Assembly: GCA_003280725.1 (NCBI GenBank) | Contig: QCED01000005.1 | Coordinates: 1 to 64,000, forward strand | Reading direction: 5' to 3' | DNA from: Prochlorococcus sp. AG-355-M18 | GTDB lineage: Bacteria; Cyanobacteriota; Cyanobacteriia; PCC-6307; Cyanobiaceae | DNA length: 64,000 nt | Shown: positions 1 through 53,182 of the stretch, piece by piece | Layout: every line of letters begins with the position of its first letter | Numbering within the stretch: position 1 is the first letter of the stretch | Program-made: the position numbers and the translations under genes | Notes under the pieces: generated by a model | Told to the model about the DNA's origin: nothing | Seen by the model: the letters and a program-made list of their open reading frames with translations, nothing else | Databases searched by the model: none

Positions 1-2
1 AA

Positions 3-767: not shown

Positions 768-799
768 CTATAAATAAGAAATAGAAGAAATTTTTAAAA

Positions 800-2679: not shown

Positions 2680-2725
2680 AATATATTTTTGAAATTAGTA
2701 TAAATCTAACTTTGGTATTTAAAAA

Positions 2726-5332: not shown

Positions 5333-5351
5333 AATTTATTTTTTATTTATT

Positions 5352-5753: not shown

Positions 5754-5765
5754 TAATTCTGAAAG

Positions 5766-9517: not shown

Positions 9518-9524
9518 GTTTTTA

Positions 9525-10652: not shown

Positions 10653-10724
10653 TTTTGCAATTTTTTATAAACTTCTAAAACGAATTATAAAATACTTTAA
10701 GAAGTCTTTTAGCTAAAAAAATAT

Positions 10725-11453: not shown

Positions 11454-11460
11454 TTTTAAT

Positions 11461-12771: not shown

Positions 12772-12891
12772 AAAAACTTGTTTATCAAATATTTGTAGTT
12801 TCTTAAAAATTTATTTTAGTTAAAAATTTATTAAGTATGTAAAAATTGATGAATTTTGAATAATTAATTTAAAATCTATTTATAAAAATTA

Positions 12892-12965
<74 letters not shown>

Positions 12966-13073
12966 GCACTTAAATATTATATCTGAAGATAAGTACACAA
13001 CAAACTATAAATAATTTTAATTAAAATTTTACTTTTTTTAAAGTAAATTACCTTTTTAATAAATTTTTATAGA

Positions 13074-33191: not shown

Positions 33192-33716
33192 ATGACCGTA
33201 GGAATTTATTACGCAACTACAACTGGAAAAACTGAAGACGTAGCAGATCGTCTTCACAACTTTATTTCTTCAGCAGAAGCACCTAAAGATGTTTCTGATG
33301 TAGATAACCTTTCAGAATTAGAAGGTCTCGATGGGATTATCTGTGGGATACCTACTTGGAATACCGGAGCAGACGAAGAAAGATCTGGAACAGCATGGGA
33401 TTCAATCCTTGAGGATATTGGTGAACTAAGTTTATCAGGGAAAAAAGTTGCAATTTTTGGATTAGGAGATTCTTCAACCTATACAGAAAATTATTGTGAT
33501 GCCATGGAAGAACTTCATAGCTACTTCGCGAAAGCAGGCGCCGAAATGGTCGGTTACGTAGATAAATCTTCTTATACTTTTGATGAGTCTAAAAGTGTCA
33601 TAGGAGAAAGTTTTTGTGGATTGCCTCTTGATGAGGATAGTGAATCTGATTTGACTGATTCTCGTCTTGAAACATGGGCGTCTCAGCTTAAGAATGAAAT
33701 CCCCTCGTTGGCATAA
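33192..33716 (+). CDS. isiB: Flavodoxin
   Basis: The 174-residue long-chain flavodoxin starts TVGIYYATTTGKTEDVADRL, the FMN phosphate loop (T-x-T-G-x-T). GIPTWNTGADEERSGTAWDS and FGLGDSSTYTENYCDAMEEL supply the Trp and Tyr-side FMN contacts. It replaces ferredoxin as a photosystem I electron acceptor under iron limitation. A pcb antenna gene follows 144 bp downstream on the same strand, recalling the isiAB iron-stress pair of other cyanobacteria. Confidence 0.95.
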   Translation: MTVGIYYATTTGKTEDVADRLHNFISSAEAPKDVSDVDNLSELEGLDGIICGIPTWNTGADEERSGTAWDSILEDIGELSLSGKKVAIFGLGDSSTYTENYCDAMEELHSYFAKAGAEMVGYVDKSSYTFDESKSVIGESFCGLPLDEDSESDLTDSRLETWASQLKNEIPSLA

Positions 33717-33860
33717 GCTTTTAAAGATATTGCTTTCCTAATTTGTAACATTTGTTCTTTTGAAATATGTTTTTTTTACATAAGTAATTAAATCTGTAAA
33801 GAACATGTAAAAAAAAATACTGATTAGCAATAAGCTCAACTTGCTGTTTACTTAAATCAA

Positions 33861-34919
33861 GTGTTACAAACTTACGGAAAATCTGATGTTACCTATGACT
33901 GGTACGCGGGGAATTCTGGTGTTGTTGGCCGTTCAGGTAAATTCATAGCAGCTCATGCTGCCCATGCAGGATTAATGATGTTTTGGGCAGGAGCTTTTGG
34001 ATTATTCGAATTGGCTCGTTATGACGCCAGTGTCCCAATGGGTGCACAGAAAGCAATTGTTTTGCCTCATCTTGCTGGTATTGGTATAGGGGGCGTTGAA
34101 AATGGTGTTATTACAGAACCATATGGAATTGTTGTAATTTGCACATTACATCTAATTTTCTCAGCAGTGTTAGGTGCTGGAGGATTATTACATTCCAATA
34201 AATTTGCTGGAGATCTTGGAGACTATCCAGAGAATAGTAAGCCACAAAAATTTGATTTTGAGTGGGATGATCCAGATAAATTGACTTTTATACTTGGTCA
34301 CCATCTTATTTTTCTTGGCATTGGTGCAATAATGTTTGTCGAATGGGCTAGGATCCACGGAATATATGATCCCGCAATAGGATCTACTAGACAAGTTGTT
34401 TACAATTTAGATATTGCGGCTATCTGGAATCATCAATTTGACTTTTTAAAAATTGATAGTCTTGAAGATGTCATGGGAGGTCATGCTTTCCTAGCTTTCC
34501 TCGAAATCATTGGTGGGGTTTTCCATATTTGTACTAAGCAATTTGGAGAATATACTGAATTTAAAGGAAAAGGATTACTCGGTGCTGAGGCTATTTTGTC
34601 GTACTCAGTAGTAGGTGTTTCTTATATGGCTTTTGTGGCTGCTTTTTGGTGTGCCTCCAATACAACGATATATCCAGTTGATCTATATGGAGAGCCCTTA
34701 AAGCTTCAATTTGAATTCGCCCCTTATTTTACTGATACGGTAGATTTAGGCTCAGGAGCTTACAGTTCGAGAGCTTGGCTTGCTAATACTCATTTCTATT
34801 TGGGTTTCTTTTTCTTACAAGGCCATCTTTGGCACGCATTAAGAGCTATGGGATTTGACTTTAAGAAAATTGGTCAAGCATTTGATAACATAGAAAATAC
34901 AAAAATTACACAAAATTAA
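33861..34919 (+). CDS. pcb: Prochlorophyte chlorophyll a2/b2-binding antenna protein Pcb (CP43/IsiA family)
   Basis: The 352-residue protein starts at a GTG. It has six helices and the family phrases GRSGKFIAAHAAHAGLMMFWAGAFGLFELARYDASVPMGAQ, ILGHHLIFLGIGAIMFVEWAR, MGGHAFLAFLEIIGGVFHI and ANTHFYLGFFFLQGHLWHALRAMG, with the His residues that ligate chlorophyll. It lacks the large lumenal loop of CP43, as Pcb/IsiA do. Pcb proteins form the membrane-intrinsic antenna of Prochlorococcus. Its position after isiB suggests the iron-stress version. Confidence 0.93.
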   Translation: MLQTYGKSDVTYDWYAGNSGVVGRSGKFIAAHAAHAGLMMFWAGAFGLFELARYDASVPMGAQKAIVLPHLAGIGIGGVENGVITEPYGIVVICTLHLIFSAVLGAGGLLHSNKFAGDLGDYPENSKPQKFDFEWDDPDKLTFILGHHLIFLGIGAIMFVEWARIHGIYDPAIGSTRQVVYNLDIAAIWNHQFDFLKIDSLEDVMGGHAFLAFLEIIGGVFHICTKQFGEYTEFKGKGLLGAEAILSYSVVGVSYMAFVAAFWCASNTTIYPVDLYGEPLKLQFEFAPYFTDTVDLGSGAYSSRAWLANTHFYLGFFFLQGHLWHALRAMGFDFKKIGQAFDNIENTKITQN

Positions 34920-34932
34920 TTTAATCTATTGA

Positions 34933-34963
34933 AAACCTCTCTTTTTAAAGGGAGGTTTTTTTA
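34933..34963 (+). terminator. Rho-independent terminator after pcb
   Basis: AAACCTCTCTTT, a 2-base loop, then AAAGGGAGGTTT forms a 12-bp stem with one G-T pair, followed by a run of T. It lies 13 bases after the pcb stop and should end the isiB-pcb transcript. Confidence 0.85.
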
Positions 34964-34995
34964 TGTAAGATTACCATCAGGAATTAAAAAAATTA

Positions 34996-35649
34996 ATGAA
35001 AAATCCAAAAGAAATAAATTGTAAGGAGATTTTTCGAAATGCTTATGAAAAAAGGTATACCTGGAAGAATGATTTTAATGGTTACCAAGGTAAATGTACC
35101 TTTTTAACTAACGATAATATTCATGAAGGTGAATTTGTATTAGGTAAAGATTTTAAACCACTTATTCAAAAAATAGATAATGAAAAAATTGTTAAAATAA
35201 TTTCCTCTCAATTATTTGAGGTATGTATTCACAGAGTAAAGAGACAATTTCATTCTGTGCATTCAGAGAATAACTTTAATTTTCTAAGAAGTTCTGAAAG
35301 TGGTATTGAAATGAGTATATCTGGTAAAAATGAAGGGGATAAATATAGAGTTAAAAATGAATGCATTAATATGGTATATAGAAAAATTCATGGAACTATT
35401 ATTGAAATTTTTGTTGATGAATTTATTGATACAGGAATAGGTTTCCTTAGTAAAAAATACAGTAGTCAACAAATCAATCCCAAGAACCTAAAGGCAAATT
35501 CACAAAAGATGGAATATTATGATGATTTTATAAATTTAGGAAAAGACGATTACTGGATCTTAAATTCGAGAACAATTAAATTCTTAAACCAAAATCGAGA
35601 AGAAGAACTACAAAAATTTATTTTCGAAGACTTGCGTTTATTGAACTAA
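34996..35649 (+). CDS. DUF3386-like cyanobacterial protein
   Basis: The 217-residue soluble protein opens IFRNAYEKRYTWKNDFNGYQGKCTFL, the phrase I associate with the DUF3386 family of cyanobacteria and plants. A second conserved-looking stretch is LFEVCIHRVKRQFHSVHSENNF. There is no signal peptide or membrane helix. The function is unknown. It follows the pcb terminator by 32 bases and so likely has its own promoter. Confidence 0.65.
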   Translation: MKNPKEINCKEIFRNAYEKRYTWKNDFNGYQGKCTFLTNDNIHEGEFVLGKDFKPLIQKIDNEKIVKIISSQLFEVCIHRVKRQFHSVHSENNFNFLRSSESGIEMSISGKNEGDKYRVKNECINMVYRKIHGTIIEIFVDEFIDTGIGFLSKKYSSQQINPKNLKANSQKMEYYDDFINLGKDDYWILNSRTIKFLNQNREEELQKFIFEDLRLLN

Positions 35650-35654
35650 TTTCT

Positions 35655-35900
35655 TTATTCAACTAACCTAAATCCTTTGTCAAGTAGTTTTTGATAAAGG
35701 AGTCTTGCTCTGAAGGCTAAAATTTGTTCTTCATTATCATTACTAATTACATGAAAATAATTATTATCCAATTTGTTTTTGCTAAAACAAACATTTGCTT
35801 CACCTAACCTTAGAGTCCAGTTTTCTTCTTTGGCTAAATACTGATTAGGACCAAGATCCCAAGGGCATTTTTCAGGATATTTTTCTCTTTTAGAGCCCAT
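35655..35900 (-). CDS. Small conserved-looking hypothetical protein
   Basis: The 81-residue protein has an even, coding-like composition (YPEKCPWDLGPNQYLAKEENWTLRLGEANVCFSKNKLDNNYFHVIS) and a clear ATG. No domain is recognised. It converges on the DUF3386-like gene with a 5-base gap, and no partner on its strand is close. Confidence 0.65.
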   Translation of the reverse strand: MGSKREKYPEKCPWDLGPNQYLAKEENWTLRLGEANVCFSKNKLDNNYFHVISNDNEEQILAFRARLLYQKLLDKGFRLVE

Positions 35901-35996
35901 ATAAATAATTCCAACTATCCAATGTTAGTTAAAATTTAAAAGTATGGCTATAGATTTTTGTTAATAACCTTGCCTTAAATATGGTATGGGTATTAT

Positions 35997-36635
35997 TTAA
36001 CCTTTAGTCGCAATTAAACAATAAAATGGGTCTTTATTTAAAAAATTAAAAAAACTAAAGGAGGAATCATTAAATTTTTTAATAATTTTTGGTTCATTAA
36101 ATCCGTTTGTGATTAATACTTTTCTTACATATTTGACTCTTTCTTCCTCAGTAGAGGTAGTCCATATATTAGGAGCCTTATGCCAAAATGCTCTATTTGA
36201 AAAAGCTATTATAAACTTGCCCTGACTACTCAAAATTCTTGCAATTTCGCTAGTTAAATTTTCTGGATATTGTAAATATTGCCAAGCTGCGACCATTAGA
36301 CAATAATCAACACTTTCATTATCTAGGGGAATTTCTTGATTTAAATTGAAATTTTGTATCCAAAAAGTATCAAAAATTTTGTTCTTCTCAAGTTCTTGTT
36401 TGTTTAATCCATGGCCAATTACTTTTTTATATTTTTTCTCTTCAGGTAAATAACTATCCCAACTGGACATTAAATCGAGGACAGTCGAATAATCTGAAAT
36501 TTCTTTTTTATAAACATTTGAAAGATAATGCCTGAAGTTTGAATCTAAATGATAAACAAACTTTGGGTCAGAATAAAATTCTTCATCATTGCTCTCGTCA
36601 AGTTTTTTTCTTTGATAATTATTTAAAACTTCCAA
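35997..36635 (-). CDS. Class I SAM-dependent methyltransferase
   Basis: The 212-residue protein has a methyltransferase core: STVLDLMSSWDSYLPE as motif I, ESVDYCLMVAAWQYLQYPENLTSEIARILSSQGKFIIAFSNRAFWHKAP as motifs IV-VI. This is the Methyltransf_11 pattern. Motif I is unusual (DLMSSWDSY instead of a Gly-rich loop). The substrate is unknown. It is a single minus-strand gene. Confidence 0.75.
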   Translation of the reverse strand: MEVLNNYQRKKLDESNDEEFYSDPKFVYHLDSNFRHYLSNVYKKEISDYSTVLDLMSSWDSYLPEEKKYKKVIGHGLNKQELEKNKIFDTFWIQNFNLNQEIPLDNESVDYCLMVAAWQYLQYPENLTSEIARILSSQGKFIIAFSNRAFWHKAPNIWTTSTEEERVKYVRKVLITNGFNEPKIIKKFNDSSFSFFNFLNKDPFYCLIATKG

Positions 36636-36789
36636 AACGATAATTAGTTAGTGCTCTTATAAACTTAGTGAATAGATATTAATATTGTGTAGTTGAAATG
36701 TATTTTGCTTTTAATTAATTAAAGATTTTTAAAAAACCTAGACATCTATTCAAAAAAAGTTAAATTATTAATTAATAATTTAGTTAAAA

Positions 36790-36960
36790 ATGATTGAATT
36801 CAAAAGGGGCAAAAAAAGTAGATCTAAAAATTCCCTTTTCAATCCATATAAAAACGGAATAAGTGAATATGATATGGCATATCTTTCATCAAGAAAAGCT
36901 ACAAAAAATAAGACTTTTACTCTACAAAATAATTCTCAAAAAGATAATTTAGCTGCATAA
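36790..36960 (+). CDS. Small basic hypothetical protein upstream of the tautomerase gene
   Basis: This 56-residue ORF is below the track's cutoff. It starts MIEFKRGKKSRSKNSLFNPY and ends KDNLAA, two bases before the tautomerase ATG. The tight spacing and the Lys/Ser/Asn-rich but varied sequence suggest a real short gene in that operon. No family is recognised. Confidence 0.5.
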   Translation: MIEFKRGKKSRSKNSLFNPYKNGISEYDMAYLSSRKATKNKTFTLQNNSQKDNLAA

Positions 36961-36962
36961 AT

Positions 36963-37295
36963 ATGCCTTACATTAATGTTTCTACATCAGCAAAAATAGA
37001 GGATAAGAAAAAATTACTTGAAGAAATCTCAATATTAGTTTCGTCTTTAACAAATAAATCAAAAAGATTTGTTATGGCTAAATTAGATGATAATTCTGAA
37101 ATGTATTTCGATGATGAAAGCCCTTGTTGCTTTTTAGAGATTAAGTCAATAGGATCTTTAAATCCTTCAGAAATGGCAAAGCCAATATCTAATTTTGTTT
37201 ATGAGAAAATTGGAATACCAATAGATAAGATTTATATTTCTTTCGAGGATGTGCCTGCTTCAATGTGGGCTTGGAATGGAAGAACCTTTGGTTAA
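36963..37295 (+). CDS. MIF/phenylpyruvate tautomerase-like protein
   Basis: The 110-residue protein begins MPYINVSTSAKIEDKKKLLEEISILVSSLTNK, giving the N-terminal catalytic proline of the tautomerase superfamily after Met removal. FVMAKLDDNSEMYFDDESPCCFLEIKSIG and KIYISFEDVPASMWAWNGRTFG match the MIF fold length and C-terminus. The natural substrate in cyanobacteria is unclear. It is followed 26 bases later by a DUF1824-like gene. Confidence 0.88.
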   Translation: MPYINVSTSAKIEDKKKLLEEISILVSSLTNKSKRFVMAKLDDNSEMYFDDESPCCFLEIKSIGSLNPSEMAKPISNFVYEKIGIPIDKIYISFEDVPASMWAWNGRTFG

Positions 37296-37321
37296 TAATT
37301 ATAATTTTAGGTATTAATTAA

Positions 37322-37711
37322 ATGGAGATAAATAAGTTAGCAGATTTAAACAGTCTTAGAACTGCTCCTATTTTAAGTAAAGTTCAAATAAAAAAACTAT
37401 TAGAAGAAATAGAAACTAATATTTTTATTGCTGATTGGATAACAATTGGAATAATGGCACCTAGTGATACTAAAGCTATTGAAGCATTACAATCAATTAC
37501 TAAAAAATATTCCTCAATTAAATTTGTGAATCTAGACTCCCTTCATGCCGATGGAAGTGTTTTTTTAAAAGGTAATCAAAAAACTGGTAATGTTTTTATT
37601 AGATCTGAAAATGGTCTCGGTGAAGGTATTTTATTAACTTGTCAGTATGACCATGAATCTAAAGAATCTATTACTGTTGGACCATTACCACTAGATTTTT
37701 TTCATGATTAA
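37322..37711 (+). CDS. DUF1824-like cyanobacterial protein
   Basis: The 129-residue soluble protein has FIADWITIGIMAPSDTKAIEALQSITKKY and the C-terminal GEGILLTCQYDHESKESITVGPLPLDFF, as I recall for the DUF1824 family. The function is unknown. It lies in the same direction as the tautomerase and glyQ, 26 and 151 bases away. Confidence 0.7.
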   Translation: MEINKLADLNSLRTAPILSKVQIKKLLEEIETNIFIADWITIGIMAPSDTKAIEALQSITKKYSSIKFVNLDSLHADGSVFLKGNQKTGNVFIRSENGLGEGILLTCQYDHESKESITVGPLPLDFFHD

Positions 37712-37862
37712 TTTCTAATTTATGTTTATATTGGATTAAGTTTTATGCTATCCAAATACCAGATAATGCTTCTCAGAAATTAGAGTTAAAAATATTTTTT
37801 GTTTTAAGTTTTGTTATTATGTTTAATGGCATTGATCTAAATTCTAAACTTCTTAAAATTTG

Positions 37863-38729
37863 ATGTTTTTTCAGGATATAATTCAAAATTTAAATAATTT
37901 TTGGTCCAAAGAGGGTTGTTTAATTATGCAGCCATATGATACTGAAAAGGGTGCTGGTACAATGAGTCCTCATACTTTTTTGAGGGCAATTGGACCCGAA
38001 CCTTGGTCTGTTGCATATGCTGAGCCATGTAGAAGACCCACAGACGGAAGATTTGGTGATAACCCTAATCGTGCACAACATTATTTTCAATATCAAGTAA
38101 TAATTAAGCCTTCCCCAGATGGGATCCAAGAAAAATATTTGAAATCTCTGGAATCTCTTGGAATAGAGGCTAAAAATCATGACATAAGATTTGTTGAAGA
38201 TAATTGGGAGTCGCCAACTCTTGGAGCTTGGGGCGTAGGTTGGGAAGTATGGCTAGACGGAATGGAAGTTACTCAATTCACTTATTTTCAACAATGCGGG
38301 GGAGTTGATTGTCAACCAATACCAATTGAAATTACATACGGTTTAGAGAGAATTGCAATGTTTTTGCAGGATAAAGAAAGTATCTGGGACTTAAATTGGA
38401 ATAAAGATCTGAAATACAGCGATATTTGGCTTCAATTTGAAAAAGGTCAATGTTCATATAATTTCTCTGAATCAAATCCTGAAAATCTCAGAAAATTATT
38501 TGAGATATATCAAGATGAAGCAAATTCATTAATTGAAAAGAAGCTAACTTACCCCGCGCTTGATTATGTTTTAAAGTGTAGTCATAGCTTTAATTTGCTT
38601 GATGCTAGAGGCGTAATATCAGTAACTGATCGTGCCCAGTATATAGAAAAAATCAGAAAGTTAGCTAGAGAAGTCGCGTCTTCATGGATACTAGAGAGGG
38701 AACGCATGGGCTTTCCCTTAGTAAAGTAA
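37863..38729 (+). CDS. glyQ: Glycyl-tRNA synthetase alpha subunit
   Basis: The ORF track adds a TTG codon before the ATG at 37863; the ATG gives the usual [14 protein letters not shown] start, 288 residues. Class II tetrameric GlyRS phrases are clear: [78 protein letters not shown] and the motif-3 [13 protein letters not shown]. With the beta subunit encoded elsewhere it charges tRNA-Gly. Confidence 0.97.
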
Positions 38730-38861
38730 GATTTATATCTCGAAAGTATCAGAATGTTATTTCCTAAGGTAAAGAAATATACATGACAAAGTTATTTTTT
38801 ATTTTTGGATTATTTCTACCAAATTTTTGTTGTAAGGTAACAAAAATAACAATTTTAATAA

Positions 38862-39890
38862 ATGAAATTAAAGAATTATTTAAAAAGGCTATTTTTTACT
38901 TCAGTGACATTATCGCTACTTCTAAATAATCAACCTGTAAATTCTGCAGAGAAAGAGGTTAGGTTATTTTCTGGTAGACATTACAATACAGATAAAGAGG
39001 TTTATCAAAAATTTCAAGAACAAACTGGCATCAAAGTTAGATATATAGAAACAGATGGAAAAGCTATAATTGAGCGCTTAAAAAGAGAGGGTAAAAATTC
39101 TCAGGCTGATTTAGTAATTCTTGTTGATGCAGCAAGAATTGAAAATGCATCAAAGGCAAATTTATTTCAAAAAATTAATTCAAATATTCTAGAAAATAGT
39201 GTTCCAAATAATTTAAGAGATCCTAGAAATAAATGGTTTGGCCTTACTAGGCGATTAAGGGTAATCATCACAAATCCGGATATTGTGGATATTACAAAAA
39301 TCAAAAATTTTGAGGATCTAACCAATCCTTCTTTTAAAGGAAAAGTATGTCTAAGAAATAGAAAAAGTCCTTATAATCAATCTTTGGTTTCTAATCAAAT
39401 AGCAAAGAAAGGCGTTGGCCAAACAAAAATTTGGCTTAAGGGTTTGATATCAAATGTCTCCACTCCCTATTTTTCTGGAGATTCTTCATTAATAAGAGCT
39501 GTAGGGCAGGGAACGTGCGGTATTGGAATCGTTAATCATTATTATGTCGCAAGGATGCTTGATGGAGTTAAAGGCCCAAGGGATGCTTCTTTAGCAGAAA
39601 AAATAAAATTAATAATACCCAATCCTGCGCATGTAAATATAACTGCTGGGGGCGTATATAAATATGCAGAAAACAAGACTGAGGCTATTAAACTTCTTGA
39701 ATATTTAGCTTCTAGTGAAGGTAGTCAAGGTTTAGCTAATAAAACTTATGAGCACCCTTTAAAGGAATCAAGTCAAAATAGAATTGTTAGTAAATTTGGA
39801 GATTTCACTCCAGATAATGTGACTATAAAAGAAATTGGCAAATTCAATAGTAAGGCAATAGAAATAATGAAAGAAACTGGTTGGAATTAA
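38862..39890 (+). CDS. futA: Periplasmic Fe(III)-binding protein FutA/IdiA
   Basis: The 342-residue protein has a signal peptide (LKRLFFTSVTLSLLLNNQPVNSA, cleavage about residue 29). The mature part starts KEVRLFSGRHYNTDKEVYQKFQEQTGIKVRYIETDG. LVDAARIENAS, CLRNRKSPYNQSLVSNQIA and CGIGIVNHYYVARML include the conserved Tyr ligands for ferric iron. It delivers Fe(III) to an ABC importer; no permease or ATPase gene is in the window. It stands alone, 132 bp after glyQ. Confidence 0.93.
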   Translation: MKLKNYLKRLFFTSVTLSLLLNNQPVNSAEKEVRLFSGRHYNTDKEVYQKFQEQTGIKVRYIETDGKAIIERLKREGKNSQADLVILVDAARIENASKANLFQKINSNILENSVPNNLRDPRNKWFGLTRRLRVIITNPDIVDITKIKNFEDLTNPSFKGKVCLRNRKSPYNQSLVSNQIAKKGVGQTKIWLKGLISNVSTPYFSGDSSLIRAVGQGTCGIGIVNHYYVARMLDGVKGPRDASLAEKIKLIIPNPAHVNITAGGVYKYAENKTEAIKLLEYLASSEGSQGLANKTYEHPLKESSQNRIVSKFGDFTPDNVTIKEIGKFNSKAIEIMKETGWN

Positions 39891-44121: not shown

Positions 44122-44871
44122 ATGAAATTTTTGCTCCAAAAAAAAAATAGTTATATTCTCCTTAATTTTAAATTTTTTAATAATCTCAGAAAAATCCTCT
44201 CCTACACTATAGAGAAAATCTATAATTTTTTTGATTTTTTTCATACTTTTAGACTTAAGAAGTTTTATGAAAGAAAAGATTTTGATCTAGTTGTTGATGT
44301 GGGATCCCATAAAGGAGAATTTATCTATAGAGTCATAAAAAAAGGAATTCCTATATATTCATTTGAACCTCAAACTAAAGTAATAAGATACTTAAAAAAA
44401 AATACATCTAAAAATAATGTTCTTGAATATTTTGACTATGCTTTAGGAAATTACGAAGGATCTATTGATTTATATATTAATAATATGAGTTCAACAAGTA
44501 CTACAAAAATAACCAAATTAAAAAGTAAATGGGTTAAATTCAAAAATTTCGTTTTAGGAGGTAAAGTCTCTTTGGATAGAGAAACAGTAAAGATATCAAC
44601 TCTTGATAAATTATTATTTGATAAATTAGGTTCAGAGAAAATATTATTAAAAATAGATGTTGAAGGAGGCGAAAATGAAGTTTTGCAGGGTAGTGAAAAA
44701 ATTCTTAAAAAATGCAATGTTGTTTTGATACAAATAGAATCATCAAATTACAATATATATAAAAATAGTTATAGTCCTGAAAAATTATTGTTGAGTCATG
44801 GTTATGAAATAGAAAAGAAATTTATTTTTCCTCTTATGAATTTTACAGACATTATTTTCAAAAAAAACTAA
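44122..44871 (+). CDS. FkbM-family methyltransferase
   Basis: The 249-residue protein has a SAM-binding core (FDLVVDVGSHKGEFIYRVIKKG, IYSFEPQTKVIRYLKKN). The FkbM C-terminal signature is TVKISTLDKLL...ILLKIDVEGGENEVLQGSEKILKKCNVVLIQIE. FkbM enzymes O-methylate sugars and natural products, so it may methylate a sugar of the glycan made by this cluster. It is 7 bases upstream of the GtrA gene. Confidence 0.92.
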   Translation: MKFLLQKKNSYILLNFKFFNNLRKILSYTIEKIYNFFDFFHTFRLKKFYERKDFDLVVDVGSHKGEFIYRVIKKGIPIYSFEPQTKVIRYLKKNTSKNNVLEYFDYALGNYEGSIDLYINNMSSTSTTKITKLKSKWVKFKNFVLGGKVSLDRETVKISTLDKLLFDKLGSEKILLKIDVEGGENEVLQGSEKILKKCNVVLIQIESSNYNIYKNSYSPEKLLLSHGYEIEKKFIFPLMNFTDIIFKKN

Positions 44872-44878
44872 ATAAGTT

Positions 44879-45274
44879 TTGTATTTAAATTTCAGTCAAT
44901 TTTTAAAATTCCTCCTTGCAGGGGGTTTGGCAGCTATTGCAAATATTTTTAGTAGAACTATTTTTTCTTATTTTTTCCCATATGAAATATCTATAATCTT
45001 TTCCTTTATGGTGGGACTTCTGTTTGGATATTTTTTAATGCGGAATTATGTTTTTTATTTAAAAAAAAATTTTTTATTTAAACAGATTATAAGGTTTTTA
45101 ATAATAAATTTTATGGCTTTGCTTCAAACTTTATTAATAACTATAGCTTTCAAATACTTATTAGATTTTTTTCTAGAAAATATAGATCTTATAGAACTAA
45201 TTGCTCATATCATAGGAGTTTCTTGCCCAGCTTTAACTAGTTATTTTGCACATAAATACTTTACTTTTAAATAG
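44879..45274 (+). CDS. GtrA-family membrane protein
   Basis: The 131-residue protein starts at a TTG 7 bases after the FkbM stop. It has four helices with the GtrA pattern: FLKFLLAGGLAAIANIFSRTIFSYFFPYE, then FGYFLMRNYVFYLK and the final LTSYFAHKYFTFK. GtrA proteins help move or anchor polyprenyl-phosphate sugars; the mycobacterial member Rv3789 lies beside dprE1. Here the DprE1- and DprE2-like genes are in the same cluster, which makes a role with a lipid-linked pentose plausible. Confidence 0.88.
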   Translation: MYLNFSQFLKFLLAGGLAAIANIFSRTIFSYFFPYEISIIFSFMVGLLFGYFLMRNYVFYLKKNFLFKQIIRFLIINFMALLQTLLITIAFKYLLDFFLENIDLIELIAHIIGVSCPALTSYFAHKYFTFK

Positions 45275-45387
45275 AAATTAAAACATGCAGTTATTCATTA
45301 ATGCAAAAGCGGAGAGAAAAAATAAAAAAAATAAAAAATATAAAATTTAAATATTGATGTAATATATGAGTGATTTACAAGAAAAAG

Positions 45388-46542
45388 ATGAATATATTTA
45401 TAAAAACGAAAAAAAATATATTGAACTTTTCAAATAATTTAGAGATTTATTACTTCATACCATCATTATCAGTAGCACTAATATCATGTCTTCCACCATT
45501 TAGATCGATACAGTCTATTTCATATTGGATAAAAGGTTATTATTATGTTAATTATTTTGACTTGGGTTTTATAAAAAGAGGATTGGTTGGAACCATTATA
45601 AAAATTTCAAACCTTTCTGATTATTTAAGTCCTTCTTTATTAGTTCTTTTTTGCCATATATTTTTTGTTATAATTTTTTCAATTATTTTCTGGATTTTTA
45701 CAAAAGATTGTTTTAAAAATTTTAAGATAAAGGATAAGATATTTTATTATTCATTTTTTTTATTAAGTCCAGTTTTATTTTTGCGATTGGGTTATGACAT
45801 TGGAAGGATGGATCTATATCTTCTGTTGATTTCATTGACAGCAATTATATCTATTCAGAAAAATTACTTTTCTTTTACCAAGAATTCTTTACTCACATCT
45901 ATTTTTATATCAATTCAACTTTTAATACATGATGCATCTATATTATTTTATTCGCCATTAATATTTAGCTTTTATTTATATAAATATTCTTACTTAATAA
46001 ATGCGCAGTTTAAGAAAATATTTTTAATTTTCTTGATCCCAATTTTAGTTGGTACATCACTTTTAATATTTGGAAAATATGAATTAGGGGCTGTTCAACT
46101 TGAACAATATTTAAGCAATATAAGTCCTGAGTTGAGTGGATCTATGAGAATGGAGTTGACTAATACTTTTAGAGAGAATTCTCAAGCTGGTTTAAATCTT
46201 TTAACACTTAAAGGCTTTCTTGGAGGTAACTATTTAGTCACAACATATTATGCTTTCTTAGTAATTATTTTAATAAAATTTGTCAAATTATCATATTTTT
46301 TAAAACTTTCAGTTTTCACACCCTTGTGTGTATCATTTTTAGCTATGGATCATACAAGATATCTTGCTATTTCAGCTATTTGCTGTAATTTATTATTTCT
46401 TATTAGTGCTGGAGAATTTAAATTAACCACGCCTCAGAACTTTAGATTTTGTTTTTATATATTTTTTACTGCAATATTTTTCTTAGGACCATGGGGAATA
46501 ATATCATCAGATGCTCTACCTTTGTTAAAACATTATTTTTAA
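45388..46542 (+). CDS. Polytopic membrane protein, possible lipid-sugar transferase or polymerase
   Basis: The track starts at a GTG (45370); the ATG at 45388 gives about 384 residues and is my choice. About nine to ten hydrophobic helices are visible. Charged loop phrases include DLGFIKRGLVGTIIKI and LRLGYDIGRMDLYLL, which resemble the loops of uncharacterised membrane proteins in polysaccharide loci. No family is assigned. Located between GtrA and UbiA, it is a candidate for the transferase that uses the lipid-linked sugar. Confidence 0.6.
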   Translation: MNIFIKTKKNILNFSNNLEIYYFIPSLSVALISCLPPFRSIQSISYWIKGYYYVNYFDLGFIKRGLVGTIIKISNLSDYLSPSLLVLFCHIFFVIIFSIIFWIFTKDCFKNFKIKDKIFYYSFFLLSPVLFLRLGYDIGRMDLYLLLISLTAIISIQKNYFSFTKNSLLTSIFISIQLLIHDASILFYSPLIFSFYLYKYSYLINAQFKKIFLIFLIPILVGTSLLIFGKYELGAVQLEQYLSNISPELSGSMRMELTNTFRENSQAGLNLLTLKGFLGGNYLVTTYYAFLVIILIKFVKLSYFLKLSVFTPLCVSFLAMDHTRYLAISAICCNLLFLISAGEFKLTTPQNFRFCFYIFFTAIFFLGPWGIISSDALPLLKHYF

Positions 46543-46655
46543 AAATATATAAAATTTATTTATAAATTTTTTTTAATTTTAGAATATTATAAATATCTTA
46601 TTAAAAACAATTGATTTGCATTTGTATAAACATCAAATAATATTAAATAAAGAAT

Positions 46656-47603
46656 TTGATAATCTTGACTGGAATACTTCATAAAAATAATCTTGGGTTT
46701 ATTTTTTTGTCATTATTGAAAGCATGTAGACCTATTCAGTGGACAAAAAATCTACTTGTTTTTGCAGTAATTCTTTTTTCTTTTAAGTTAAATAAATTAA
46801 TTTTAATCAATTCCTTTTATGCCTTTATTAGTTTTTGTTTTATTTCTTCTGCAATTTATTTAATTAATGATATTAGAGATATAAGCAAGGATAAGCTGCA
46901 TCCAAAAAAACGATATAGGCCAATACCAAAGGGTGATATATCTTTAAATCTTGTTAAATTTAGTTCTATATTTTTAGCAACATTAGGATTATTTATTGGT
47001 TATCTAATTTCAATTAAGTTTTTGTTGATAATAATCATATATGGGGTAATTCAAATTCTTTATTGTATTAGATTAAAAAAAGAACCGTTATTAGATATTA
47101 TTTGTATTGCCTCTGGTTTTTTATTGAGAGCTATTTCTGGTGTTATTGCTTCAGGACTTAATTTTTCTCCATGGTTTATCTTAACTATTGGACTTTTAGC
47201 TTTGTTCTTAGCTGTAGAGAAAAGGAAAGCTGAATTGATTTTTTATAAGGAAACATCTATTTTAACTAGAGAAACTCTTGAAAAATATTCATTACCATTA
47301 CTTCAACGATATGAAAGTTTATTAAGTTCAAGTACATTTATTAGTTACAGCTTATGGGCTGCTGGACCTTCGTTAAATGGAGCCTCTTCTCCTTGGATGT
47401 TACTTTCAATACCATTTGTACTTTTAGGTATATTCAGATATTTATTCATAAGTGATCCTGAGGTTTCGAAAAATTTATCCTCTAAAGGAATATCATTATC
47501 AACGGAAAATCCTGAATTAATTCTAATTTATGATTCTGGGATTAGGAATTTAATTATCTTTTGGATAATAACTATAGTTTTAATAGGTATATTCTTTCAT
47601 TAA
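46656..47603 (+). CDS. ubiA: UbiA-family decaprenyl-phosphate phosphoribosyltransferase-like enzyme
   Basis: The 315-residue protein has about nine helices. KACRPIQWTKNLLVFAVILF and the catalytic SAIYLINDIRDISKDKLHPKKRYRPIPKG (NDxxD at 71-75) closely follow mycobacterial Rv3806c, as do YGVIQILYCIRLKKEPLLDIICIASGFLLRAISG and SPWFILTIGLLALFLAVEKRKAEL. That enzyme joins PRPP to polyprenyl phosphate, the first step to polyprenyl-phospho-arabinose. The start is uncertain (TTG at 46656 or 46665). DprE1- and DprE2-like genes follow in the same cluster. Confidence 0.88.
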   Translation: MIILTGILHKNNLGFIFLSLLKACRPIQWTKNLLVFAVILFSFKLNKLILINSFYAFISFCFISSAIYLINDIRDISKDKLHPKKRYRPIPKGDISLNLVKFSSIFLATLGLFIGYLISIKFLLIIIIYGVIQILYCIRLKKEPLLDIICIASGFLLRAISGVIASGLNFSPWFILTIGLLALFLAVEKRKAELIFYKETSILTRETLEKYSLPLLQRYESLLSSSTFISYSLWAAGPSLNGASSPWMLLSIPFVLLGIFRYLFISDPEVSKNLSSKGISLSTENPELILIYDSGIRNLIIFWIITIVLIGIFFH

Positions 47604-47678
47604 TTATTTTTTCTAAATTCTTAATAGAAAAAAAACTTTTATTAACATAAATAAAGTTTAATTTATAATATTGGATTT

Positions 47679-48617
47679 ATGAAAATTTTTCTTCCAGGAG
47701 GAGCTGGCTTGGTAGGAATAAATTTAATAGCATCTATCACATCATCTAATCCGGATTGGAAAATGGTTGTTGTTGATAAGAATTTAAATTCAATTAATGT
47801 TGCAAGAAGAATTTTCCCTGATGTAAGTTATCTTTGTGAGGATTTATCATTTACCAAAAATCAAAAATGGCCATTTGAGATTAAAGATTGTGATATATGC
47901 ATTATGCTACAAGCTGAAATTGGTAGTGTTAACGATAAGTTATTTGAGATAAATAATATAAAGACAACAAAGGTAATCCTAAATGAACTAAAAAAATTTG
48001 GGGTTAGTAGAATAATTCATATAAGTAGTTCAGTCGTTAATTCAAAATCAGATGACTTATACACAAAAACAAAAAGGCAACAAGAGTTGATTGTTTTAAG
48101 TCATTTCCCAGATTCAGTAATATTAAGACCAACTTTAATGTTTGGTTGGTTTGATAGGAAACACCTTGGATGGTTATCTAATCTAATGGTCTCATTTCCT
48201 TTTTTTCCAATTCCTGGGAGAGGTCAGTTCATAAGACAACCTCTATATGTGGGAGATTTCTGTTCCATAATTAAAAGTTGTATTTGTGATCCCTCCTTGA
48301 AAGGCTCATATAATATTACTGGCCTTGAAAAAATCAAGTACGTAGATTTAATGAAAATATTAAGGAAAATAAAATCATCTAAAACCTTATTTATTTATTT
48401 ACCTATCCCTTTATTTAGTTTCTTATTAAGATTATGGGCGTTTATTTCTAATAAGCCAGCATTCACAAGTTCTCAACTTTATGCACTCATAGCAGGAGAT
48501 CAATTTGAATTAATTGATTGGCCAACGATTTTTAAAGTAGAAAAAACAAATATTGAGAATGCTTTAAATTTGACTCATAATGATCCAAGATATAGCAAAA
48601 TTAAAATTCCATTTTAA
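47679..48617 (+). CDS. NAD-dependent epimerase/dehydratase (atypical SDR)
   Basis: The 312-residue protein starts FLPGGAGLVGINLIASI (Gly-rich loop about residues 7-13). A later DLYTKTKRQQELIVL supplies Y-x3-K, then ILRPTLMFGWFDRKHLGW. The SPLYVGDFCSI and YNITGLEKIKYVDLMKIL segments are the usual substrate-domain motifs of UDP-sugar epimerases. The substrate is unknown; a role in modifying a sugar nucleotide or a lipid-linked sugar of this locus is likely. It lies between ubiA and an FAD oxidoreductase on the same strand. Confidence 0.82.
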   Translation: MKIFLPGGAGLVGINLIASITSSNPDWKMVVVDKNLNSINVARRIFPDVSYLCEDLSFTKNQKWPFEIKDCDICIMLQAEIGSVNDKLFEINNIKTTKVILNELKKFGVSRIIHISSSVVNSKSDDLYTKTKRQQELIVLSHFPDSVILRPTLMFGWFDRKHLGWLSNLMVSFPFFPIPGRGQFIRQPLYVGDFCSIIKSCICDPSLKGSYNITGLEKIKYVDLMKILRKIKSSKTLFIYLPIPLFSFLLRLWAFISNKPAFTSSQLYALIAGDQFELIDWPTIFKVEKTNIENALNLTHNDPRYSKIKIPF

Positions 48618-48645
48618 AAATTAAGATTAATTATTGATTAAATAA

Positions 48646-49941
48646 ATGAAAAAAAAACAAAAAGAAATAGCCATTATTGGAGGCGGTCCTATGGGATTAG
48701 CTATAGCTTATCAACTTACTTTAAAAGGGTTTAAACCTGTCATTTATGAAGCAGATAATAGATTGGGTGGAATGACAGCTTGTTTTAATTTTGAAGGATT
48801 AGACATTGAGAGGTTCTATCATTTTCATTGCCTCTCAGATTTTGAGTTTATAAAAATACTTAAAGAAATTGGATTGATGAAATATTTAAAATGGAAAGAA
48901 ACAAAAATGGGTTTTTATTATGATAAAAAATTATATAAATGGGGTTCTATAGATGCTGTAATTCGATTTGATAAGATTCCTTTATTAACAAGAATTAGAT
49001 ATTTGTGCCATGCTGCAAGATGCTTAACTATTAGAAATTGGAATCATTTGGATAAAATAACAGCAGTTGAATGGTTAAAAAAATGGCTTGGGAAAAGTGG
49101 TTATTACAAATTGTGGCATAAACTTTTTGAATATAAATTTTATCATTTTTCTAATGAAATTTCTGCAGCATGGATATGGAGTAGGATTAATAGACTAGGT
49201 AAGTCTAGAAAAAATTTAAAAGAAAAATTAGGGTATTTGGAAGGTGGATCTAAGCAATTGATTAACCGTTTAGCAAAAATAATTTCAGAGAAAGGAACTT
49301 TAATTAATCTTTCTACTCCTGTTTTAGGTATTAACCCTAGAAAAGATAGTGGGGCAAATATTACGACTTCTCTTGGATGTAAAGAGTATGATCTTGTAAT
49401 TAGTACTATACCTTTACCATTAGTAGGAGAAATATTTCGTCATAGTGGTATAGATCAAAAAATTACTTCTAAGTATGAATGTTTAGATTGTGTTGCATGT
49501 GCATGTGTAATTTTTAAAACTAGAAAAAAAATAACAGATAATTTCTGGACAAATATTAATGATAAACAATTCAATATTCCAGGGATAGTTGAAATAAGTA
49601 ATTTGAGAGAATTTAATCATCACATAACATATGTTCCTTTTTATATGCCAGAAACTCATGAAGAATATTTACTTGAAAACAAACATTTTATAAATAAGGC
49701 TTGGGATTGCCTTAAGTTAATAAATCCAGATTTAAATGATTCTGACCTTATAGCTTCACATTGCAGTAGATATAGATTTGCTCAACCAGTTTGCAGTACT
49801 AACTATCAGAAAAAACTACCACCAAAACAACCTTTTAAAGGGGTTTATACCGTTGATACAAATTTTTATTATCCAGAAGATAGAGGTATCAATGAAAGTT
49901 TTAGTTTTGGAAGAAATTTAGTTGACCAATTATTTCCATAA
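48646..49941 (+). CDS. FAD-dependent oxidoreductase (amine-oxidase/protoporphyrinogen-oxidase-like)
   Basis: A 431-residue flavoprotein. The dinucleotide motif AIIGGGPMGLAIAYQLTLKGFKPVIYEADNRLGGM (about residues 8-42) and the C-terminal GVYTVDTNFYYPEDRGINESFSFGRNL FAD-contact segment are clear. The middle has FDGLDIERFYH-like text (FEGLDIERFYHFHC) and a Tyr/Trp-rich substrate domain. Relatives are found in polysaccharide loci, but their reaction is generally undefined. It is not an obvious UDP-galactopyranose mutase. It is 28 bases after the epimerase gene. Confidence 0.8.
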   Translation: MKKKQKEIAIIGGGPMGLAIAYQLTLKGFKPVIYEADNRLGGMTACFNFEGLDIERFYHFHCLSDFEFIKILKEIGLMKYLKWKETKMGFYYDKKLYKWGSIDAVIRFDKIPLLTRIRYLCHAARCLTIRNWNHLDKITAVEWLKKWLGKSGYYKLWHKLFEYKFYHFSNEISAAWIWSRINRLGKSRKNLKEKLGYLEGGSKQLINRLAKIISEKGTLINLSTPVLGINPRKDSGANITTSLGCKEYDLVISTIPLPLVGEIFRHSGIDQKITSKYECLDCVACACVIFKTRKKITDNFWTNINDKQFNIPGIVEISNLREFNHHITYVPFYMPETHEEYLLENKHFINKAWDCLKLINPDLNDSDLIASHCSRYRFAQPVCSTNYQKKLPPKQPFKGVYTVDTNFYYPEDRGINESFSFGRNLVDQLFP

Positions 49942-49980
49942 AGTGAAATATAATTTATACAAAATAATTAAGGATATATT

Positions 49981-50946
49981 TTGTTTCTTATAAATCTAAA
50001 GAAAAAGTTTAAAAATTTTAAATCATCTAATATTGAGACTATGTTGATATTGCTGATAGCGGTATTAATCTTTTGTTTTGGGATTAACAAGATTTTAAAA
50101 ATAGATAAATCTAGTTTAGATATAGTTAAAGATTCAACTTTGAGATTGGTTTATTGGTTGCCAATTTTCTATTTAATACTTTCTTTGAGTTATTTTGGCA
50201 GATATTTAAGGTGGAGATTAATACTGGGTTCTTTTTCCATTGGAAGTTGGAGTAAAGATGATGCTTTATCCTGGTTTAAAGGTTTTGCTTTAACAGCATC
50301 TCCAGGAAAGATTGGAGAAATTTCGAGAATTAGAACAACAAGTAAAGAGTTAGGTTATTCGAAAAAAATATTATTAATTGCTTTTTTCTTTGAAAGATTT
50401 CTAGATGCGTCAGCAGTTTTGATATGGATCCTCGTTCTACTACCTGAATTGATTTTGGAAAAGCTGATAAAGCTATTGTCCAGTAACTTTGATTTTATAA
50501 TGTTAATTATATTTTTCACTGTTTTTATCTTTTTTTATTTATTTAAAAAATTTAAAAAGATATTTAAAAAAAAATGGGTATTGATAACAGGCTATCTTTC
50601 TAGAGGGCAAATAATAATACTTTTTGTAAAAAGTCTTTCTACCAGCGTCTGTTTCTGGGGTATAGAAGCAATGATCCTTTGGTTATTAGTTTATGTCCTT
50701 TCGCCAGATTCAATATCACAAGCAAATGCAATAAAGATATATTTATTTTCTGGTCTTGCAGGTGTATTATCTGGCCTACCAGGGGGTATTGGAGTTAATG
50801 AAGCCACAGCAACGTTATTACTTCAAAAAGAGGGAGTCCCAACTTTAATTGCTTTAAGTATTTCAATCTTGAGAAGATTAATTACAATATGGAGTATTAC
50901 ATTGATCTCCATTATTTTATCAATAAGCGCAAATAAATTAAGATAA
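49981..50946 (+). CDS. Lysylphosphatidylglycerol-synthase-type transmembrane protein (UPF0104 family)
   Basis: The 321-residue protein starts at a TTG and has about eight helices. ALTASPGKIGEISRIRTTSKELGYSKK and the C-terminal GLAGVLSGLPGGIGVNEATATLLLQKEGVPTLIALSISILRRLITIW are the hallmarks of the LPG_synthase_TM fold. These are lipid-handling membrane proteins, and several act as flippases. In this cluster it could move the lipid-linked sugar across the membrane, in place of or together with GtrA. Confidence 0.88.
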   Translation: MFLINLKKKFKNFKSSNIETMLILLIAVLIFCFGINKILKIDKSSLDIVKDSTLRLVYWLPIFYLILSLSYFGRYLRWRLILGSFSIGSWSKDDALSWFKGFALTASPGKIGEISRIRTTSKELGYSKKILLIAFFFERFLDASAVLIWILVLLPELILEKLIKLLSSNFDFIMLIIFFTVFIFFYLFKKFKKIFKKKWVLITGYLSRGQIIILFVKSLSTSVCFWGIEAMILWLLVYVLSPDSISQANAIKIYLFSGLAGVLSGLPGGIGVNEATATLLLQKEGVPTLIALSISILRRLITIWSITLISIILSISANKLR

Positions 50947-51077
50947 TTATTTTTTAAAAAAAATTATTTTAACTTTTTAAAATTAAAAGTCTTATATCTA
51001 TTATTCTATTTAGAATTGGTTTATATTCTTAATCATTTAAGGCAGATTTAAATTTAAAGTTCACCATTAATTAATAT

Positions 51078-51806
51078 ATGAAACCATTTGAAAGTGTATT
51101 TATACTTGGAGGTACAAGTACTATTGCAAGAGCAATATGTGTAAAACTAGCTGAATCAGGTGTAAAAAAATTTCATTTAGTTTCAAGAGATAAAAATTCT
51201 AATATTCAATTTGTAAAAAAATTACGTTCTTTATATAGAGTTGAAGTTACTCAAGAAGAGCATGATTTATTAAGTAATTGTTCATTATCTGAGCCTTTTT
51301 TACCGAAAGTAGATTTTTATGATCTTTATTTATTAACAAGTGGTTATATGGGAGATTCAGATTTAGCGAAAGTAAGTACTCTTGAGGCCTTAAAAATAAA
51401 TGCAATCAATTATAGTAGTTTAATTCCTTGGTTAACAGAGATAACAAATTATCAAAGAATAAAATTAAAAGGGTCTTTATGGGTCTTTACTTCTGTGGCT
51501 TGTGATCGCGGGAGACCTTCAAATTATCATTATGGTGCGGCAAAAGCAGCGTTATCAATTTTCTGTGAAGGCTTACTTCTTAGATGTCATGATAAACCAT
51601 TTTCAGTACGTATAATTAAGGCTGGATACATGGATACACCTATGGCGGAAAATGCTCCAAAACTACTACGTGTATCTCCTAAAAAGGTTGCTGAAGATTT
51701 AATGCATAATCCAAATAAAAGAGGAATAGAATATCTACCTTGGTGGTGGAATTTGATTATGTTTTTTGTGAGAATTCTTCCTGATAAATATGCGGCTAAA
51801 TTATGA
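51078..51806 (+). CDS. dprE2: DprE2-like SDR (polyprenyl-phospho-2-keto-pentose reductase)
   Basis: The 242-residue SDR has ILGGTSTIARAI (Gly motif 11-17), LLTSGYMGD, a Ser in FTSVACDRGRP, and the catalytic YGAAKAALS. The tail VRIIKAGYMDTPMAENAPKLLRVSPKKVAEDLMHNPNKRGIEYLPWWWNLIMFFVRILPDKYAAKL follows the DprE2 layout (RPG.V.T.M...). In mycobacteria DprE2 reduces the 2-keto intermediate to decaprenyl-phospho-arabinose. Its stop overlaps the DprE1-like start by 4 bases, as expected for two subunits of one epimerase. Confidence 0.88.
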   Translation: MKPFESVFILGGTSTIARAICVKLAESGVKKFHLVSRDKNSNIQFVKKLRSLYRVEVTQEEHDLLSNCSLSEPFLPKVDFYDLYLLTSGYMGDSDLAKVSTLEALKINAINYSSLIPWLTEITNYQRIKLKGSLWVFTSVACDRGRPSNYHYGAAKAALSIFCEGLLLRCHDKPFSVRIIKAGYMDTPMAENAPKLLRVSPKKVAEDLMHNPNKRGIEYLPWWWNLIMFFVRILPDKYAAKL

Positions 51807-53182
51807 ACTTTGAGGAAAAAAAAATTGATAGAAAATCTATTTCAGGATGGGGATGTAATTTACATGCAAAAATATCTGAAATAAATCCTATTTCAATTAA
51901 GGATTTGCAAAATTCAATTATTAACTTTAATGAATCTTCAGTTATTTCAAGAGGAGCAGGGAGATCATATGGAGATGCTGCTCTCCTGAATAATGGGTTA
52001 ATAATTTTTCTCAAAGCTTTTGATCATATTGATCTGAATGTAAAAAAGAAAAGAGTAAAGGTTGGTGGAGGAGTAAGCATAGATAATCTTTTGAAAATAA
52101 TTATTCCAAAAGGTTTTTTTATACCTGTATCTCCTGGGACCAGATTTGTAACTGTTGGTGGGGCAATCGCTTCAGATGTTCATGGAAAGAATCATTATTT
52201 AAATGGAAGTTTTGGAAATCATGTTATTGAAATAAAATTAGTTGATGGTTTGGGTCAATTAAGAACACTTTCTTTAAATAAAGATCAAAATAAAGAGGCA
52301 AGAAATCAATTTTGGGCAACGATAGGAGGTATGGGATTAACAGGAGTAGTTGTTGAAGCTACATTTTCTTTGATTCCGATACAAACATCAAAAATAATTG
52401 TTGATACCTTTAGGTACAAAGATTTGGATAATTTAATGGATGGAATGATACAAGCTCAAAAAAAATATCAGTATTGTGTCGCATGGGTAGATAGTTTAAA
52501 TCAAAAAAATAGGGGTATTTTAACTTGTGGAAATCATGCCACTTTAGAAAATATGAAGACAAAAAAAAATCTTGAAGAACCTTTAAAGTACGAATCGAAA
52601 TCTATAGCTTCAGTTCCAAAAATTTTTCACAATGGCGTTTTAAATAAATATACAGTAGCTGCATTTAATAAGTTCTTGTATAGAAAAACTCCCAAAATAA
52701 AAAGAGAATCTTTCCAATCCATGGAAGCTTTTTTTTATCCACTTGATGGCATTAAAAATTGGAATAAATTGTATGGTAAAAGAGGTTTCTTACAATATCA
52801 ATTTGTTGTTCCTGACAGGTCATCTCAAGTAATACTAGAATCGTTGGAAATATTAAGAAAAATTGGCGTTCCAAGTTTCTTAACGGTGTTAAAAAGATTT
52901 GGCCCATGTAATTCTTCTTTCTTATCATTCCCTCAGAAAGGTTGGACTTTAGCGATAGATATACCACTTACACTTCCTAATATTGAACTAACATTATTAA
53001 AACTTGATTTGAAAATAGCCAAAGCAGGAGGAAAGATTTATCTTGCAAAAGACTCTAGACAATCCTCAGAAATTTTTTATAAAACATATCCAAGGATTAA
53101 AGATTGGAAATTAATTAGAGATTCTTTAGATCCAAATAATATATTTTGTTCAGATCTAGCAAAAAGATTAGGGATGTTTTGA
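51803..53182 (+). CDS. dprE1: DprE1-like FAD oxidase (polyprenyl-phospho-ribose 2'-oxidase)
   Basis: The 459-residue flavoprotein has SGWGCNLHAKI, FAD-binding SRGAGRSYGDAA (49-60), SPGTRFVTVGGAIASDVHGKNHYLNGSFGNHV, and ATIGGMGLTGVVVEATFSLIPI. The C-terminal AKDSRQSSEIFYKTYPRIKDWKLIRDSLDPNNIFCSDLAKRLGMF ends the same way as mycobacterial DprE1, including the Lys of AKDSR. The position equivalent to Cys387, the benzothiazinone target, is Ala384 in GWTLAIDIP. It should oxidise the 2'-OH of a polyprenyl-phospho-ribose. Confidence 0.92.
   Translation: MNFEEKKIDRKSISGWGCNLHAKISEINPISIKDLQNSIINFNESSVISRGAGRSYGDAALLNNGLIIFLKAFDHIDLNVKKKRVKVGGGVSIDNLLKIIIPKGFFIPVSPGTRFVTVGGAIASDVHGKNHYLNGSFGNHVIEIKLVDGLGQLRTLSLNKDQNKEARNQFWATIGGMGLTGVVVEATFSLIPIQTSKIIVDTFRYKDLDNLMDGMIQAQKKYQYCVAWVDSLNQKNRGILTCGNHATLENMKTKKNLEEPLKYESKSIASVPKIFHNGVLNKYTVAAFNKFLYRKTPKIKRESFQSMEAFFYPLDGIKNWNKLYGKRGFLQYQFVVPDRSSQVILESLEILRKIGVPSFLTVLKRFGPCNSSFLSFPQKGWTLAIDIPLTLPNIELTLLKLDLKIAKAGGKIYLAKDSRQSSEIFYKTYPRIKDWKLIRDSLDPNNIFCSDLAKRLGMF

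Follow-up and report, generated by a model that had tools for sequence, protein, structure and literature searches.

The region considered here lies on contig QCED01000005.1 of Prochlorococcus sp. AG-355-M18 and holds a group of genes that appears to encode a polyprenyl-phosphate pentofuranose pathway of the decaprenyl-phosphoryl-arabinose (DPA) type, which in mycobacteria is carried out by Rv3806c, Rv3807c, DprE1 and DprE2. The window, meaning the whole stretch of 64,000 nucleotides that was analysed, belongs to a genome assembly of 1.4 Mb in 52 contigs that is 83% complete. Nine closely spaced genes with open reading frames, all on the forward strand, form a co-directional cluster at 44122-53182 (Table 1). 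A preliminary description of the window had recognised three of them, a UbiA-family gene, a short-chain dehydrogenase/reductase (SDR) gene and an oxidase gene, as co-directional, with a 4-base overlap between the last two. The positions of these core genes and the overlap were confirmed. The extent given for the cluster was too narrow, and an extended SDR (SDRx), a PRK07233-type flavoprotein and a GtrA-family membrane protein had been overlooked as members of the cassette.

Table 1 Genes of the co-directional cluster and related pathway loci (FAD, flavin adenine dinucleotide)
Feature	Location	Strand	Basis and remarks
FkbM-family methyltransferase	44122..44871	+	PF05050 1e-19; TIGR01444 above cut-off; first gene of the run
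GtrA-family membrane protein	44879..45274	+	PF04138 4e-12
390-residue multi-helix membrane protein	45370..46542	+	No Pfam family; about 7 hydrophobic segments
Putative polyprenyl-phosphate phosphoribosyltransferase (UbiA family, Rv3806c-like)	46656..47603	+	NF008978; 8j8j
SDRx, extended SDR	47679..48617	+	PF01370; GGAGLVG and YTKTK motifs
PRK07233-type FAD oxidoreductase (amine-oxidase superfamily)	48646..49941	+	NF005560 445.7 bits, cut-off 252
LPG_synthase_TM (LPG_TM) protein, flippase-like	49981..50946	+	PF03706 9e-28; no HAD domain
DprE2-like classical SDR, divergent	51078..51806	+	PRK07102 and DprE2 models, both under cut-off
DprE1 oxidase (FAD)	51803..53182	+	NF053785 469 bits; PDB 4aut 1e-97
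HAD phosphatase-LPG_synthase_TM fusions	L026:11472-13058, L038:6056-7597, L045:5403-7013		Picocyanobacterial pathway loci
Second pathway version: HAD-UbiA, small membrane protein, DprE1, DprE2	L033:7445-11346, L034:7558-11484		Two genus members

The UbiA-family protein scores 220.9 bits against the NCBIfam decaprenyl-phosphate phosphoribosyltransferase model NF008978 (cut-off 207), and its best match in the PDB is 8j8j, Rv3806c (1e-40). It carries the motif N71-D-x-x-D75 together with D79, followed by HPKKRYRPIPKG. In Rv3806c, phosphoribosyl pyrophosphate (PRPP) and magnesium are contacted by R22, K28, Y70, N73, D77, K87, R90, Q135, Y138, K143, Y157 and K208 (PMC10994848). Ten of these 12 residues are identical in the window protein, with phenylalanine in place of Y157 and glutamate in place of K208. 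Three other UbiA proteins of the same genome, used as a control, retain N73, R90, Y138 and K143 and have lost K28, Y70, K87 and Q135. Since the window UbiA keeps the PRPP contacts while the in-genome controls lack four of them, its residues mark it as a predicted PRPP enzyme rather than a quinone or chlorophyll prenyltransferase. The preliminary assignment of an Rv3806c-like UbiA, made from the NDxxD motif, is borne out by the family score, by the structural match and by the retained PRPP-binding residues.

The oxidase had been described as clearly DprE1-like, and the model and structural matches as well as its placement in trees agree with this. Its score against the NCBIfam DprE1 model NF053785 (469 bits) is slightly below the cut-off of 500, which two picocyanobacterial orthologues of the same clade exceed with 538 and 514 bits. 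Within the pocket, Y60, H132, K134, W230, Q334, Q336, K367 and K418 are identical, Y314 is replaced by phenylalanine, and C387, the benzothiazinone cysteine, by alanine. In a tree of 91 sequences, 26 picocyanobacterial proteins form one clade nested within actinobacterial DprE1, adjoining aquatic Nanopelagicales-type actinobacteria, and the surrounding actinobacterial proteins include that of M. tuberculosis. A second, careful tree rejected actinobacterial monophyly (p-AU 0.0018); the actinobacterial sample in these trees consists of the 80 best pattern-search matches, neither tree is rooted, and the groups differ in composition. The window oxidase thus groups inside DprE1. One sequence of the sample, from a record titled as a Bifidobacterium breve metagenome-assembled genome (L066), is near-identical to DprE1 of a freshwater Actinomycetota metagenome-assembled genome (L065), and its title looks doubtful.

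The UbiA tree has a different topology, which groups the picocyanobacterial clade with other cyanobacteria (support 91) and keeps the actinobacteria separate (support 99). The pathway is accordingly of mosaic origin by phylogeny, with DprE1 inside an actinobacterial clade and UbiA of a cyanobacterial lineage. This mosaic history suggests gene exchange between co-occurring aquatic bacteria.

The SDR that overlaps the DprE1 gene is more divergent. It scores highest with PRK07102 (153 bits against a cut-off of 267) and next with DprE2 (86 bits against 250), and the DprE1-linked SDRs of other Gram-negatives reach more than 300 bits and 171-203 bits respectively against the same two models. It has YGAAK where DprE2 has YGSTK, so that the Y-x-x-x-K catalytic site is kept, and it adjoins DprE1 across picocyanobacterial loci. 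We name it DprE2-like, as the preliminary description did, because of this partnership and this motif. In the tree it lies on a long isolated branch, which makes any placement of the SDR relative to the DprE clades tentative.

About 25 picocyanobacterial loci contain the UbiA, DprE2 and DprE1 core, and the three genes occur together in nearly every picocyanobacterial DprE1 locus that is not truncated by a contig end. This recurrence indicates that the arrangement in the window is not a matter of chance. Beyond the picocyanobacteria, the same core is conserved in other cyanobacteria, in Actinobacteria and in Proteobacteria. A full-length DprE1 relative was found in 14 of 201 genomes of the family sample, a DprE1 relative in 13 of 151 genus genomes (one being a fragment), and one in 15 of the 339 genomes of the phylum sample. 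Two members of the genus (G336 and G279) hold a second version of the pathway, in which UbiA is fused to a HAD domain and DprE1 is only about 36% identical; in the tree this DprE1 falls with other forms from cyanobacteria and Proteobacteria. A search of phage records and viral contigs found no DprE1 relative, and carriage by phage is unsupported. Plasmids of Lactococcus, Marivivens and haloarchaea (L164, L161, H28, H30, H33, H35) carry UbiA genes resembling PRPP transferases, and the gene on the Lactococcus plasmid adjoins a HAD phosphatase and a GtrA gene.

In addition to the core, picocyanobacterial loci contain SDRx, the PRK07233 flavoprotein and GtrA as a set, with exceptions at L026, L145 and L025, the last of which has no GtrA. 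At least 95% of 20 rows keep the catalytic Y128 and K132 of SDRx. The same genes, in the order UbiA-DprE1-DprE2-SDRx-flavoprotein-GtrA, were found on plasmids of Burkholderia stagnalis, Agrobacterium salinitolerans, Rhodobacteraceae SC52 and two Rhizobium tumorigenes strains, and by homology two more Rhizobium plasmids hold the six-gene cassette. In these proteobacterial relatives SDRx is 42-44% identical and the flavoprotein 36-41% identical, and GtrA relatives are present in picocyanobacterial and proteobacterial cassettes alike. When 72,556 plasmids were searched with SDRx, the 7 matches were exactly the 7 plasmids with the six-gene cassette. Likewise, all 7 genomes of the family sample with a flavoprotein more than 50% identical fall among the 14 with DprE1; a hand calculation that excludes the window genome puts such co-occurrence by chance at about 2e-8, a figure that assumes independent genomes, which these are not. 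More distant flavoprotein homologues (27-33% identical) occur in other cyanobacteria. None of the actinobacterial DprE1 loci carries SDRx or the cassette flavoprotein, and Rhizobium leguminosarum has a short form without the pair. An AlphaFold2 model of the flavoprotein built from three sequences was unusable (pLDDT 45).

Close relatives of SDRx and of the cassette flavoprotein turned up nowhere but next to DprE1, in two phyla, which fits an action on the same lipid-linked intermediate. The simplest reading of this association is that both enzymes would act on the lipid-linked sugar made by the core. Their conservation makes plain arabinofuranose (Araf) less certain as the end product and favours a pentofuranose that has been altered further than plain arabinose. 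The preliminary description had proposed a lipid-linked pentose, probably arabinofuranose, for a surface glycan; the pentofuranose pathway in this proposal is supported, and Araf as its sugar stays plausible at reduced certainty.

The remaining genes offer candidates for the other steps. In relatives, a HAD domain is fused to LPG_TM, fused to UbiA, or free beside GtrA (G323, G234), and in four genomes of the genus (G323, G234, G270 and G659) the single PF12710 match of the genome sits in the pathway locus. The preliminary description had noted the absence of an Rv3807c-like phosphatase. No HAD phosphatase was found in this genome at 83% completeness, and relatives show a HAD domain in this role. 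The near-complete genomes G223 and G340 likewise gave no PF12710 match. In the branch of the window either another phosphatase may serve or the branch may work differently. A DUF212 PAP2-like protein in the genome belongs to a family too general for it to be named as the phosphatase. On the Marivivens plasmid a gene annotated as 'divergent PAP2' adjoins UbiA. The HAD-LPG_TM fusions tie LPG_TM to the pathway, in which it is perhaps a flippase, and GtrA is a candidate flippase for the lipid-linked pentose; no MATE-family protein is present among the nine cluster genes. The 390-residue membrane protein has two homologues of 56% identity in the genus, both encoded immediately upstream of the UbiA gene, and its place and topology make it a candidate GT-C-like pentosyltransferase. 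Its DxGFxKRG motif after the first helix was considered as a general mark of such transferases and rejected, being confined to this protein and the two homologues. The FkbM methyltransferase is an optional accessory, a relative being carried by 2 of 30 picocyanobacterial rows.

The setting of the cluster was evaluated by comparison with related genomes. A FutA-like gene ends at 39890, and the ferredoxin and CobQ genes start at 53378. The interval between them measures 13.5 kb in the window and about 190 bases in G204, and G202, G210, G208 and G209 hold other cargo at the same site. The G+C content is 22-29% over 42-54 kb as opposed to 32-40% immediately rightward. The locus is thus cargo at a hypervariable insertion site, and its gene content suggests a role at the cell surface. 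To the left (33192-39890), genes named by eye as encoding a flavodoxin, a Pcb/IsiA-like chlorophyll-binding protein and the FutA-like iron-binding protein resemble an iron-stress locus. The Pcb-type gene and photosystem II genes in the window agree with the earlier view of a Prochlorococcus-type genome. A second surface-glycan island at 1-13000, also named by eye, contains genes for a UDP-glucuronate decarboxylase-like SDR, a UDP-glucose dehydrogenase, a UDP-GlcNAc 2-epimerase-like protein and an O-antigen ligase/polymerase-like protein, together with multi-helix membrane genes.

Considered together, these results make it likely that this locus, a horizontally variable island for surface glycans, encodes an extended polyprenyl-phosphate pentofuranose pathway. 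The analysis shows the gene identities, active-site residues, conserved cassette, phylogeny and insertion site; what each enzyme does, in which order, to which final sugar and onto which acceptor is deduced, as is the part played in surface variation. UbiA would move ribose-5-phosphate from PRPP to polyprenyl phosphate, and a phosphatase (the HAD protein in relatives, some other enzyme here) would strip the 5-phosphate. DprE1 would then oxidise C2 with FAD and the DprE2-like SDR would reduce the ketone, giving lipid-linked D-Araf, which SDRx and the flavoprotein probably alter further. GtrA, LPG_TM or both may carry the lipid-linked sugar across the membrane, and for its transfer onto a surface glycan the best candidate is the 390-residue membrane protein. 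Several observations weigh against this reading. No HAD phosphatase (PF12710) was found in the window genome at its 83% completeness; the DprE2-like SDR lies under both family cut-offs, PRK07102 and DprE2, and on a long isolated branch (length 1.66); L026 and L145 hold the flavoprotein without SDRx; and the transferase candidate matches no family, lenient Pfam scans having given nothing usable and its single-sequence AlphaFold2 model being unusable (pLDDT 45).

The predicted DPA-type pathway itself is well supported because the PRPP residues of UbiA, the grouping of DprE1 and the travelling of the genes together across phyla all point to it. UbiA, SDR and FAD oxidase proteins form large families with many roles, and this fact and the missing HAD phosphatase would be expected if unrelated housekeeping genes or degraded remnants, such as a quinone-type UbiA and generic oxidoreductases, merely resembled a pathway. 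Such an explanation is extremely improbable given that the PRPP-specific residues are kept, that UbiA scores above an equivalog cut-off, that the genes have open reading frames and that different phyla share the conserved cassette. It is also quite unlikely that the pathway stops at lipid-linked ribofuranose (Ribf) or xylofuranose (Xylf), with the SDR no partner of DprE1 in the DprE2 sense and SDRx by itself acting like ORF13 of Citrobacter O2, a C3 epimerase of the SDR type that needs no partner to convert Ribf to Xylf (PMC11127046). The SDR epimerase motifs of SDRx, as well as the low score and long branch of the DprE2-like SDR, are compatible with this ending. An intact DprE1, always paired with this SDR and here overlapping it, speaks against it, as do the retained Y-x-x-x-K site of the SDR and the fact that its two top-scoring models, PRK07102 and DprE2, are those of DprE1-linked SDRs elsewhere.

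The pathway might be a plain DPA pathway that yields ordinary D-Araf, with SDRx and the flavoprotein acting elsewhere, either on another glycan sugar or on the polyprenol. DprE1/E2-type genes accompany Araf in Gram-negatives (PMC11127046), many relatives contain the core alone, and phytoene desaturase and HpnE, whose substrates are isoprenoids, are among the closest described relatives of the flavoprotein. The restriction of SDRx and the cassette flavoprotein to the neighbourhood of DprE1 in two phyla fits the same intermediate instead, and we regard the plain pathway as possible but somewhat unlikely. One specific form of the extended pathway, common to picocyanobacteria and Proteobacteria, would be a second redox route in which SDRx and the flavoprotein, after inversion of C2 by DprE1/E2, oxidise and reduce another carbon to give, for example, lyxofuranose. 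We put this forward as a doubtful suggestion; lyxofuranose occurs in no solved carbohydrate structure (PMC11127046).

A pathway of this kind is already known in Gram-negatives. A literature search on arabinose or DprE1 among cyanobacteria yielded no report of it, most subscription papers being outside its reach. If the extended reading is true, a mycobacterial-type cell-wall precursor pathway is present in picocyanobacteria, which include the most abundant photosynthetic organisms, and it forms swappable cargo of a surface-glycan island. The extended cassette would then predict a further step on lipid-linked pentoses and serve as its genomic marker. Since D-Araf on Pseudomonas pili gives phage resistance (PMC12369383), a role of the locus in cyanophage resistance becomes testable.

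Comparison with known systems serves to place the window cluster among them. It shares with mycobacterial DPA synthesis the PRPP contacts of UbiA, the DprE1 clade and an SDR partner adjoining DprE1. It differs in the order DprE2-DprE1, in its very divergent DprE2, in alanine for Cys387 of DprE1, in having no Rv3807c-like gene and in its additional SDRx, flavoprotein, GtrA and LPG_TM. The functions of PPPRS, HAD and GT-C proteins are established in Citrobacter, and DprE1/E2 have been proposed for Araf systems (PMC11127046). Like the three-component system of Citrobacter youngae O1/O2 (GT136; PMC11127046), the pathway combines a UbiA PRPP transferase, a HAD phosphatase (here in relatives), a flippase candidate, a multi-helix membrane protein and epimerising enzymes that would set the pentose; unlike that system, the window has GtrA and LPG_TM for a MATE flippase, a transferase candidate without a family, and DprE1/E2 plus a further SDR and flavoprotein. 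The pilin D-Araf island of Pseudomonas paraeruginosa (PSPA7_6245-6251, TfpW), which protects against phages (PMC12369383), differs from the window cluster in that the latter has no visible pilin or TfpW gene; compared by description, both have a lipid-linked D-Araf pathway, predicted in the case of the window, on a genomic island of a Gram-negative. The plasmid cassettes of Burkholderia, Agrobacterium, Rhizobium and Rhodobacteraceae differ in the fusion of UbiA to a HAD phosphatase, in the order DprE1-DprE2, in their lack of LPG_TM and in having DprE1 and DprE2 from other clades, and they share with the window all six genes of the extended cassette, namely UbiA, DprE1, the DprE2-like SDR, SDRx, the flavoprotein and GtrA.

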